Virus record (IMG/VR): IMGVR_UViG_3300031857_001193 | Coordinates: 1 to 26,211 of that record | Strand: one strand, 5' to 3' | Source: a virus | Length of the DNA: 26,211 bases | Shown here: positions 8,414 to 13,093 of the stretch, one piece after another | How positions within the stretch are numbered: position 1 is the stretch's first letter | Layout: each line of letters begins with the position of its first letter | Notes under the pieces: model-generated | The model's input: the letters and a program-made list of their open reading frames with translations, nothing else | Databases searched by the model: none | Told to the model about the DNA's origin: nothing | Made by a program: the position numbers and the translations under genes

Positions 8414-9023
8414 ACAATTTGCTCACTTATTCCCAAGAGCACAAGACCCACAGGGATGGGTTAACTCAATGAACAATGTATTCCCAACATATGACCTTAA
8501 CACACCAAAAAGAATTGCTGCATTTCTTGCACAGTGTGGACATGAGTCTGGTGGATGGACAGTGTTCGAAGAAAACTTAAATTACTCTGCAAAGGGATTG
8601 ATGGGAATCTTCAAAAAGTATTTCCCTACTGAAGATCTCGCTAATCAGTATGCAAGACAACCACAGAAGATTGCTAATCGTGTTTATGGTGGTCGCATGG
8701 GCAATGGTCCAGAAGCGTCTGGTGATGGATGGAAGTATCGTGGACGTGGACCAATCCAGTTGACTGGAAAAGATAACTATCGTGCATTTGCTCAAGAGAT
8801 GTTTGATGACTGGCAAAATCTTTTTGATAATCCAGACTGGGTAAATGCAGATCGTGACTTTGCTTTGATGTCTGCAATCTGGTTCTGGAACAAGAACAAA
8901 CTAAATCGTGAAGCAGATGCTGGCGATATTAAGACAATGACTCGTAAAATCAATGGTGGTTTTATTGGTCTTGAAGATCGTATTAAACACTATGAGGAAG
9001 CAATGCACTTATTGCACGGATAA
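8400..9023 (+). CDS. GH19 endolysin (chitinase-like lysozyme)
   Basis: A 207-residue glycoside hydrolase family 19 protein that would cleave the peptidoglycan glycan backbone at lysis. Catalytic glutamates are E49 in CGHESGGW and E58 in FEENLNYS. Further family hallmarks are WKYRGRGPIQLTGKDNY near 115-131, AIWFWNKNKLN near 161-171 and INGGFIGLEDR near 181-191. There is no signal peptide, so export needs a holin; candidates are the membrane proteins at 6058 and 21588. Length fits a single-domain endolysin without a cell-wall binding module. It is coupled to the next gene by TAATG. Confidence 0.92.
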   Translation: MLTAEQFAHLFPRAQDPQGWVNSMNNVFPTYDLNTPKRIAAFLAQCGHESGGWTVFEENLNYSAKGLMGIFKKYFPTEDLANQYARQPQKIANRVYGGRMGNGPEASGDGWKYRGRGPIQLTGKDNYRAFAQEMFDDWQNLFDNPDWVNADRDFALMSAIWFWNKNKLNREADAGDIKTMTRKINGGFIGLEDRIKHYEEAMHLLHG

Positions 9024-9676
9024 TGAAAACATTTATACATCATGATTTACCCAAACTTGAACGTGACACCAAACCCGATGGAACTCGTTTATACAAAACA
9101 CCATCGGGTTTTGCCTATCCAAGCGTCACAACGATTACAGGATTGCACACAAAAAAGGCAATCATGGAATGGCGAAAGCGAGTCGGAGAAGAAGAAGCAA
9201 CAAGAATCTCTACCAGAGCAGCAAACAGAGGAACAAAAATTCACAAACTCTGCGAAGACTATCTGCGTGGAGAACTTGATGAACCAGATATCTTTCATGC
9301 AGAGATGTTCAATTCCATCAGACCAATGCTCGATGACATCGACAACATTCACTGCTTGGAAGATCCGCTCTATTGTGACCACCTACAGGTGGCAGGAACA
9401 GTTGACTGCATCGCAGAATATCAAGGTAGACTTAGTGTCATAGATTTTAAGACATCATCTCGACCAAAAGATCGTGATGATATTCATAACTACTTTATGC
9501 AAACTGCAGCATATGCAGTTGCGTTTGAAGAGAGAACTGGAATTGCAGTTGATCGAATGGTTGTTATCATGGCAGTTGAAAACGATGATCCAAGATGGTT
9601 TATTGAGAAACGTGATAACTGGATTGCAGGATTTAAAAAATTAAGACTTGACTATAAGAACAAGTATGGTGTATAA
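9023..9676 (+). CDS. PD-(D/E)XK exonuclease (RecB/MGME1-like)
   Basis: A 217-residue nuclease of the RecB/Cas4/MGME1 group. Visible motifs are RGTKIHKLCEDYL (H74, E78), GTVDCIAEYQGRLSVIDFKT with D128 and D141-x-K143, and a QTAAYA motif at 160-165 with Q160 and Y164. These are the classical H-(E)-D-DXK-QxxxY residues of single-strand exonucleases. T4-like aquatic phages often carry such an enzyme in the recombination or end-processing set. The last 29 bases of the gene carry the -35 box and spacer of promoter P3. Confidence 0.88.
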   Translation: MKTFIHHDLPKLERDTKPDGTRLYKTPSGFAYPSVTTITGLHTKKAIMEWRKRVGEEEATRISTRAANRGTKIHKLCEDYLRGELDEPDIFHAEMFNSIRPMLDDIDNIHCLEDPLYCDHLQVAGTVDCIAEYQGRLSVIDFKTSSRPKDRDDIHNYFMQTAAYAVAFEERTGIAVDRMVVIMAVENDDPRWFIEKRDNWIAGFKKLRLDYKNKYGV

Positions 9677-9677
9677 T
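9648..9677 (+). promoter_or_regulatory. promoter P3 upstream of the tmRNA gene
   Basis: TTGACT at 9648-9653, an 18-base spacer and TATAAT at 9672-9677. It overlaps the end of the exonuclease gene. The RNA would start near 9684-9685, about 75 bases before the acceptor piece of the tmRNA. It has a better -35 box but a one-base longer spacer than the other sites. Confidence 0.65.
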
Positions 9678-9684
9678 AGATAAT

Positions 9685-9759
9685 ATGGATGACGATCTTA
9701 CTAGATTTTTGATAGGGTTTATAATAATTGTAATTATAATTATTTTAATCTTATCGTAA
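9685..9759 (+). CDS. possible 24-residue hydrophobic peptide
   Basis: An ATG lies at the predicted start of the P3 transcript and opens a 24-codon frame: an acidic MDDDLTR followed by FLIGFIIIVIIIILILS, a single membrane span. There is no Shine-Dalgarno. It may be a leaderless membrane microprotein, or just AT-rich leader of the tmRNA precursor, since it ends immediately before the acceptor piece. Confidence 0.3.
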   Translation: MDDDLTRFLIGFIIIVIIIILILS

Positions 9760-9760
9760 G

Positions 9761-9825
9761 AATTGCTGTATGAAGCAATGAGAAAGGTGTTCTGGACGAG
9801 GGTTCGATTCCCTCCACCTCCACCA
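9761..9825 (+). ncRNA. tmRNA acceptor piece
   Basis: It contains a small hairpin (ATTGCT 9762-9767 with AGCAAT 9774-9779), the 3' strand of P2, and a perfect five-pair T stem GAGGG 9798-9802 / CCCTC 9810-9814 around a TTCGATT loop. These are followed by the 3' acceptor strand, A discriminator and an encoded CCA at 9823-9825. No D or anticodon arm precedes it, so it is not a tRNA. Confidence 0.88.
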
Positions 9826-9917
9826 TAAGAGAACTATGACATGGGATGATATACGAAGAGTTAAAGTTTTACTAACATGTTACTTGTTAGTAATCTTTGC
9901 ATTAGTTTTCTTATGAT
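9826..9917 (+). other. tmRNA intervening segment with hairpin
   Basis: A 92-base linker joins the CCA end to the 5' acceptor strand and would be excised in maturation. It contains a perfect 9-bp hairpin, TTACTAACA at 9869-9877 with TGTTAGTAA at 9885-9893, loop of seven. A 26-codon frame (9836-9916) also spans it but probably reflects the AT-rich hairpin. Confidence 0.65.
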
Positions 9918-10083
9918 GGGGGTGACTAGGTTTCGACAGGGCAATGAGTAACAGAGTGGACAGCACGACACAGAGAGTCGTAAAAAGTAAACAACGTAAA
10001 CGCAAACGACGCACAGTTCGCATTAGCAGCCTAAACACTGCTTAGGGTTTCGGTAGGTTTCCTCGTAACAGAATAACCTACCA
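9918..10083 (+). ncRNA. tmRNA coding piece with tag ANDAQFALAA
   Basis: It begins with the 5' acceptor strand and the D-loop-like ACTAGGTTTCGACA typical of tmRNA. A PK1-like helix CGAC 9966-9969 / GTCG 9977-9980 is followed by the conserved TAAAAAG. The tag codons run GCA AAC GAC GCA CAG TTC GCA TTA GCA GCC TAA (10002-10034), with a helix GCAG 10026-10029 / CTGC 10038-10041 across the stop, as in E. coli P5. A terminal 8-bp hairpin pairs GGTAGGTT 10052-10059 with AACCTACC 10075-10082 and probably defines the 3' end. Confidence 0.88.
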
Positions 10084-10107
10084 TTAATTTTATTCACTGA
10101 GGATTAT

Positions 10108-10377
10108 ATGACTGTATTGCCATTGAAAGATAAAGTTCTTGTAGCAGAGAACAAGAAAGAAAATACTACTGCGAGTGGTATCGTAATTGAAGGTGCAGGT
10201 GGATTAGGTGAGTCCAAAACTGGAACTGTTTTAGCGATTGGACCAGATGTAAAGGATGTCAAAGTTGGCGATGTCATTTATCTTGAGTGGAACAAAGCAC
10301 AAGTTGTTACTATAGATGGTAATCAACGTGTTATGATTAAAGAAGAAAATATTGTTGCTGTAGTTGACAATGTATGA
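10108..10377 (+). CDS. groES: GroES-like co-chaperonin
   Basis: An 89-residue protein with the co-chaperonin fold signature: VLPLKDKVLVAE at the N-terminus, a TASGIVIEGAGG mobile-loop region (residues 20-31), TGTVLAIGPDVKDVKVGDVIY in the middle (38-58), and a terminal KEENIVAVVDN. It would cap host GroEL and assist folding of phage proteins, the job gp31 does for T4 gp23. The hydrophobic tripeptide of the mobile loop, which touches GroEL, is represented by GIVIEG. TGAGGA upstream is the ribosome site. The gene starts 25 bases after the tmRNA and could share its transcript. Confidence 0.9.
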   Translation: MTVLPLKDKVLVAENKKENTTASGIVIEGAGGLGESKTGTVLAIGPDVKDVKVGDVIYLEWNKAQVVTIDGNQRVMIKEENIVAVVDNV

Positions 10378-12017: not shown

Positions 12018-12533
12018 ATGCGAATACGATTGTATACGTTAATCACATTATTACTAGTAAGTTTTGGATTTTTTATTTCAACAACATCCTCAAGCGAAAG
12101 AGTTATTACTGTTGAATTGACCCATTTAACAAAAGATGCTAGAACGCAAGTTGAATGCTTAGCCGATAACATCTATCACGAGGCAGGTTATGAACCTGAT
12201 TCTGGTAAGGTCGCAGTTGCACTGGTTACATTAAATCGAGTGCAAGACCCAAGATACCCAAAAGATATTTGCTCTGTAGTGAAACAAAAGTTAAACTCTA
12301 CATGTCAGTTCACATGGTGGTGTGAAAATAAAATCACCAACAGAAGCAAACAAGCATATGAGAATTCTAAAGAGATTGCATTGTATGTCTATGCAAACTA
12401 CGAAAGAATGAAAGACTTTACAGATGGTGCACTGTTTTATCACGCTGATTATGTTAGACCAAATTGGAAAGGTTTAGAAAGAACTGCAGTGGTAGGACGA
12501 CATATTTTTTATAAAGAAAAGGCGAAACTATAA
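12018..12533 (+). CDS. SleB/CwlJ-like cell wall hydrolase
   Basis: A 171-residue protein with an N-terminal signal or anchor (LYTLITLLLVSFGFFIS, residues 5-21) and a hydrolase domain of the SleB/CwlJ type: CLADNIYHEAGYEPDSGKVA near 48-67, then TLNRVQDPRYPKDICSVVKQ, CQFTWWCE near 95-102, and ALFYHADYVRPNW near 133-145. Glu in YHEAGYE is the expected catalytic acid. Members are lytic transglycosylase-like enzymes acting on peptidoglycan. Because it carries its own export signal, it could act from the periplasm without a holin, complementing the GH19 endolysin. AAGGAG precedes the ATG. Confidence 0.85.
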   Translation: MRIRLYTLITLLLVSFGFFISTTSSSERVITVELTHLTKDARTQVECLADNIYHEAGYEPDSGKVAVALVTLNRVQDPRYPKDICSVVKQKLNSTCQFTWWCENKITNRSKQAYENSKEIALYVYANYERMKDFTDGALFYHADYVRPNWKGLERTAVVGRHIFYKEKAKL

Positions 12534-13093
12534 TGATGAACAAATTGAACATTCAGCTTAAAGAGCAAGAGAGTTCACAACACTCGTTTTACTTGCTCAT
12601 GGATGATATATCATTAGCAACTGTGAAGCCAGTAGTTGAATGGATATTTGAAGCAAACTTTGTAGAAGAAAGACCAGATTTATTAAATCTAATCATCTGT
12701 TCTCCAGGTGGTGACTTGAATGCAGCGTTTGCACTGATTGATACAATGAGAGGTTCAGCAATACCAATTCGTACTATTGGATTGGGGCAGATTGCTTCTG
12801 CTGGACTTATGATTTTCATTGCTGGAGATAAAGGGAAGCGTATTCTTACACCAAACACTTCTATTCTGTCACACCAATATTCTTGGGGTGCGTTTGGTAA
12901 AGAACACGAACTATTTGCAACAGTAAAAGAGTTTGATTTAACCACTAAGAAAATGATACAGCATTATAAAAAGTGCACTGGTCTTACGGACGCAAAAATT
13001 AGAGAAGTTCTTTTGCCACCGCAGGACATTTGGTTAAGTCCACTCGAATCTAAAAAGTTAGGACTATGCGATGATGTTAAAGAACTATCTTAA
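12533..13093 (+). CDS. ClpP-like serine protease
   Basis: A 186-residue peptidase of the ClpP/S14 fold. The triad is S89 in GLGQIASAGL, H114 in ILSHQYSWG and D180 in KLGLCDD. The SPGGDLNAAFALIDTM segment (residues 57-72) forms the oxyanion/substrate-strand region. Length is close to mature ClpP. ClpP forms tetradecamers fed by ClpX or ClpA; no phage ATPase partner is seen, so it would need host ClpX or act alone. Aquatic T4-like phages do carry clpP-like genes, sometimes suggested as capsid proteases. Alternative starts are 12533 and 12536; the first overlaps the preceding TAA. Confidence 0.85.
   Translation: MMNKLNIQLKEQESSQHSFYLLMDDISLATVKPVVEWIFEANFVEERPDLLNLIICSPGGDLNAAFALIDTMRGSAIPIRTIGLGQIASAGLMIFIAGDKGKRILTPNTSILSHQYSWGAFGKEHELFATVKEFDLTTKKMIQHYKKCTGLTDAKIREVLLPPQDIWLSPLESKKLGLCDDVKELS

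Follow-up and report, generated by a model that had tools for sequence, protein, structure and literature searches.

The window analysed here (the whole stretch of 26,211 nucleotides) very likely carries a functional two-piece tmRNA gene of the beta type in a T4-like phage, in which the spacer between the two halves is an exchangeable cassette that here appears to encode a 26 amino acid membrane peptide, whose expression is predicted. Covariance models and comparison with its relatives strongly support the identity of the gene as a phage-encoded, permuted two-piece tmRNA of betaproteobacterial type whose acceptor stem would fit charging with alanine.

The initial annotation, made by reading the sequence, had placed a permuted tmRNA with the tag ANDAQFALAA at positions 9760-10083. 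Both the gene and the tag were recovered when the whole window was analysed with ARAGORN, which called a permuted tmRNA at 9733-10125 with the same tag, and when covariance models were run. The match to RF04321 (tmRNA_permuted, Rfam) covers the full model (positions 1-213) between 9764 and 10034, with 128.2 bits for a gathering cut-off of 47 (E = 4e-25); the best-scoring member of the clan, RF01850 (beta_tmRNA), matches at 9730-10096 with 127.8 bits (gathering cut-off 84). Both alignments span their models end to end, the spacer appearing as an insertion. The order of the halves is that of a permuted tmRNA scoring above the RF04321 gathering cut-off, with the acceptor half 5' of the tag half. 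When folded, the 324-nt RNA was more stable than all 100 shuffled versions (z = -3.6).

All parts of the gene lie on the plus strand. The acceptor (3') half, with its T arm, occupies 9760-9825 (ARAGORN, RF04321 and RF01850; its 5' end, near 9760, is approximate) and terminates with the acceptor 3' strand CACCTCC (9815-9821), the discriminator A (9822) and an encoded CCA (9823-9825). The tag-bearing coding (5') half occupies 9918-10083 (ARAGORN and Rfam; 3' end approximate). It starts with the acceptor 5' strand GGGGGTG (9918-9924), contains the tag reading frame at 10002-10034 (ARAGORN; ANDAQFALAA followed by TAA) and ends in a 3'-terminal hairpin at 10052-10082 formed by GGTAGGTT (10052-10059) and AACCTACC (10075-10082), as seen in the sequence and in the RF01850 alignment. 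The seven acceptor pairs and the G3-U noted at the outset were confirmed: the stem is complete (7/7), and G3-U70 is invariant in all 112 distinct relatives, whose acceptor stems covary. The CCA and a linker of exactly 92 nt (9826-9917) were likewise located correctly. CCA is encoded in 106 of the 112 relatives and replaced by CCT or CCG in the other 6. Such phage genes (L100, L106, L115, L030 and L085) have a changed leader base opposite position 76 that matches the substitution, and in these genes CCA would need to be added post-transcriptionally. A tree of mature tmRNAs gave no firm indication of origin, the sequences being too short and the support weak. A separate observation concerns L167, a contig of a metagenome-assembled genome labelled UBP17, where a standard tmRNA call is overlapped by a second tmRNA (ANDDTYLLAANA), which is permuted and has an 88-nt spacer of the phage type; this is possibly a viral contig inside the bin.

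The initial annotation had treated the 92-nt linker as a segment to be discarded, distinguished by a perfect hairpin. The hairpin (TACTAACA...TGTTAGTA) is indeed present, but it is not a conserved element, as it has no counterpart in the nearest homologous spacer (L381). An internal hairpin as the key element of the linker was therefore rejected; what is conserved is the pairing of the linker's two ends. Rather than waste, the spacer (9826-9917, plus strand, predicted to be excised) is a cassette slot with a conserved closing helix and an ORF running from this helix to the processing site.

The closing helix is formed by 9826-9835 and 9904-9913, which pair at 10 of 10 positions in the window. 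Among 112 distinct phage spacers the mean was 9.38 of 10 pairs, compared with 6.58 when 3' ends were swapped between sequences (sd 0.11, maximum 7.03 in 2000 trials). In a first set of 59 spacers, shifting the register abolished the pairing, and several Watson-Crick types were found at most positions. The helix extends through the CCA, since changes at base 76 are accompanied by changes at leader base -4 (A-T 106, T-A 4, G-C 1, G-T 1), the T and G at position 76 belonging to members without an encoded CCA. This covariation shows that the spacer closes on the acceptor stem as one extended helix. The region is unpaired in the Rfam models.

Between the two halves the spacer is an exchangeable cassette. 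Among 149 distinct versions there are 273 pairs in which the mature RNAs are at least 93% identical and the spacers less than 55% identical; the reverse, mature RNAs below 80% with spacers at 80% or more, was found in 56 pairs. The two nearest relatives of the window have mature RNAs 98% identical to its own, but their spacers (78 and 138 nt) are unrelated. An exchangeable centre between conserved halves would be the simplest description of these sequences. Non-coding spacers of 57-101 nt also occur nearly unchanged across distant tmRNA backbones (L072, L418, L468, L447 and L460), and some non-coding spacers could have a function as RNAs or be small mobile elements.

Among the 69 distinct spacers that are 75 nt or longer, 15 contain an ORF filling the slot, compared with 0.8% of spacers shuffled base by base; the 15 ORFs make up just six families, encoding 22-62 amino acids. 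Their layout is uniform: the ATG lies 10-12 bases after the CCA, behind a purine-rich stretch, and the frame is closed by the TGA within the leader sequence TGAT, one base ahead of the predicted RNase P site. In three further spacers (L033, L076 and L090) the ORF is not closed by the leader TGA and extends into the tag-bearing half. The strongest case is a family of 41 amino acids, for which dN/dS is 0.05-0.18 where dS is unsaturated. Its homologues are found directly upstream of the tmRNA (L426, L429, L430 and L432) or elsewhere (L427 and L434), three members are nested in tmRNAs with another acceptor stem (L414-L416), and the loci with nested members score as tmRNA by Infernal. Together these comparisons are strong evidence that the 41 amino acid family is a real protein gene lying in the spacer. 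Its upstream location corresponds to the position (9685-9759) at which the window has a second membrane-type ORF of 24 amino acids (MDDDLTRFLIGFIIIVIIIILILS), in the interval that separates the acceptor half from the exonuclease gene.

The nested ORF of the window (9836-9916, plus strand) would encode the 26 amino acid peptide MTWDDIRRVKVLLTCYLLVIFALVFL, with a single predicted membrane segment. The 5' strand of the closing helix provides its purine-rich stretch, and its stop codon (TGA, 9914-9916) ends one base 5' of the coding half. Divergent homologues occur at the same position in L381, L437/L439 and L438, giving a family of 26-27 amino acids whose four distinct members lie in tmRNAs that carry three different tags. 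The ORF is likely, rather than proven, to be coding, because substitutions among these four members are no more than moderately biased towards synonymous sites (pN/pS 0.54-0.70). The shared C-terminal ALVFL is to be read with caution, as the helix dictates part of it and, in L437-L439, the search pattern does so as well. Among named families (PHROGs), the nested peptides gave at most weak matches of unknown function (best E = 0.011).

It is somewhat unlikely that the tmRNA is functional and the spacer ORF of the window a chance frame in a segment that needs only to fold. The lack of an ORF in most spacers would fit such a chance origin, as would the mild synonymous bias of the 26 amino acid family, whose conservation is due in part to the helix. 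However, start, length, frame and stop are kept in four divergent members, and the same arrangement is under clear purifying selection in the 41 amino acid family. The reading of the window ORF as a gene, then, has the peptide translated either from the precursor before processing or from the spacer after excision, and comparison supports coding. Translation probably competes with processing, as the start region abuts the helix and a single base separates the stop codon from the processing site. The same geometry, with the start region against the processing helix and the stop codon one base before the RNase P site, allows a more tentative proposal, which we regard as possible though doubtful, that the spacer, once excised, serves as an mRNA, so that maturation into tmRNA and production of a small membrane protein would be alternative or coupled fates of a single transcript. 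If true, the locus, with ClpP and GroES of the phage nearby, would be a proteostasis island in which an RNA gene contains an exchangeable slot for microproteins.

The window comes from a T4-like phage, whose gp32 has full-length matches in Melnitz and a higher identity to a cyanophage over part of the protein; the PhoH-exonuclease neighbourhood is also common to the window phage and cyanophages. The tmRNA gene belongs to a conserved island of T4-like phages comprising the exonuclease, the tmRNA, often GroES, and ClpP. In the window, these neighbours are all on the plus strand: the PD-(D/E)XK exonuclease gene (9023-9676, PF12705), the upstream syntenic neighbour; the GroES-like co-chaperonin gene (10108-10377, PF00166), the downstream neighbour; and the gene of the ClpP-like protease (12533-13093, PF00574), the conserved partner of the tmRNA locus. 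A gene for a cell-wall hydrolase (12018-12533, PF07486) lies immediately 5' of the ClpP gene. When viral contigs were searched for the exonuclease, 80 loci were found, most with a permuted tmRNA downstream followed by ClpP, and many with GroES between. A search anchored on ClpP, a starting point that does not presuppose a tmRNA, was restricted to loci with at least 4 kb upstream; all 41 such loci have a permuted tmRNA on the same strand 883-2561 bases upstream of ClpP, and 20 of them contain the GroES gene. Among 18 larger records of the family, ClpP is found in all 18 and the tmRNA in 17, the exception being a 59-kb fragment (G014) that has ClpP and shows no tmRNA. The window ClpP keeps the Ser-His-Asp triad: Ser89, His114 and Asp165 align with the equivalent segments of ClpP chains of known structure. 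No SmpB was found in the 18 larger family records, and no unfoldase of the ClpX or ClpA type in the 11 family records tested. The phage would thus rely on SmpB and ClpX of the host while supplying its own tag and peptidase.

The distribution of the tag was also analysed, including the comparison with host ssrA genes called for at the outset. ANDAQFALAA is present in 65 viral stretches; it was found in none of the GTDB r220 contigs searched and in none of 399 Burkholderiales genomes, where ANDERFALAA is the dominant tag. The beta type suggests that the host may belong to the Burkholderiales as GTDB defines them. That the gene was captured recently from one of the hosts sampled was considered and rejected, as the 399 Burkholderiales genomes contain no near-full match, the best matches being short and mostly limited to the T arm and acceptor. 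The gene could in principle be a functionless passenger or a decaying host-derived copy, for example from an integration site, since prophages integrate at host ssrA genes and fragments of ssrA can be carried by prophages (PMC9004378). However, the gene is complete, covarying and syntenic across many contigs, and the lack of a near-full match in those genomes points the same way, so that we consider this origin extremely improbable. Relatives carry about 30 other tags, mostly ending in ALAA, and phage loci L008, L017, L082, L333 and L447 have longer tags (ANDAFFGEVRLAA and ANDAFYFEDLRLAA) unlike the usual ten-residue AND..ALAA. The tag frame, open and with a terminal degradation signal in the window, is kept in full among relatives despite codon changes. 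Such conservation would be needless for a decoy or inhibitor that titrates SmpB from host trans-translation, as might be imagined by analogy with the RNA of phage DS6A, which consists of a tRNA-like domain only. Although molecules of the DS6A type do inhibit tmRNA (PMC4131195), a decoy role for the window gene seems highly improbable to us.

The preferred reading, a functional tmRNA, leads to the following scheme. The gene would probably be transcribed from a sigma-70-type promoter just 5' of it, for which TTGACT-18-TATAAT (9648-9677, plus strand) is a candidate matching 11 of 12 consensus positions. The search returned 3 such sites compared with 2.5 in shuffled sequence, and -10 box statistics against shuffles were uninformative; several relatives have a perfect TTGACA-17-TATAAT near the acceptor half. 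Folding of the precursor would join the halves via the acceptor stem, with the spacer, as the covariation indicates, closing on this stem in one extended helix. By analogy with known permuted tmRNAs, RNase P would then cut at 9917/9918 and the other end would be trimmed to the CCA, leaving two base-paired RNAs. Host AlaRS would charge the acceptor via G3-U70, and host SmpB and EF-Tu would deliver the molecule to stalled ribosomes. After addition of ANDAQFALAA, host ClpX would pass the tagged products to ClpP of the host or of the phage. We infer that the outcome is ribosome rescue with tagged proteolysis during infection. The tight link between tmRNA and ClpP makes the question of why phages carry a tmRNA directly testable, and the findings suggest that small genes occupy the spacer of a split tmRNA as an exchangeable slot, in which phage microproteins escape annotation, being hidden within an RNA gene.

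A phage two-piece tmRNA is not a novelty in itself. One has been described in Melnitz, a phage of OM43 (Methylophilales), in a paper that predicts a two-piece form for 53 of 133 phage tmRNA structures and finds 17 in 47 Melnitz-like contigs (PMC9004378). The view that a permuted gene in a T4-like phage is unusual could therefore not be maintained: Melnitz and the Pelagibacter phage Mosig, both T4-like with a permuted tmRNA, are published, and related records hold 132 distinct spacer versions. The ssrA of Melnitz differs in being of the alphaproteobacterial type with a glutamine riboswitch (PMC9004378), whereas the window gene is of the beta type; apart from tmRNA, Rfam models, including those for riboswitches of the glnA type, had no match at gathering scores anywhere in the window, nor any with E up to 0.01 in the surroundings of the gene. 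In Mosig, the annotated SsrA is 3' of a PD-(D/E)XK nuclease gene related to that of the window (41% identity), but its tag is GEDNFALAA and it has no ClpP, whereas the window gene has ClpP as a partner and an ORF in its spacer. The betaproteobacterial permuted tmRNA (RF01850, merged into RF04321) shares the order of halves, the acceptor and T arm, and the AND..ALAA style of tag. Some bacterial permuted tmRNAs also have a similar spacer helix, with a short spacer (L233 and L284). Bacterial spacers in our set range from 2-4 nt to about 50 nt and contain no recognised gene, except for the 88-nt spacer of L167, and Accumulibacter-type genes have merely 2-4 nt between the halves, whereas phage spacers reach 208 nt. 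ORFs in spacers of permuted tmRNAs were not described in the literature searched, the 2004 paper on a third two-piece lineage lying outside that search. A parallel is provided by tmRNA genes with group I introns, which carry LAGLIDADG homing-endonuclease genes (PMC11915505) and hence also have a protein gene within a removed segment of a tmRNA gene; removal there is by self-splicing, whereas here a permutation spacer with ORFs of 22-62 amino acids is predicted to be removed by tRNA-type processing. All testable features of a permuted tmRNA are present in the window gene, and the features in which it is a variant are its ORF-bearing cassette spacer and its linkage to ClpP.
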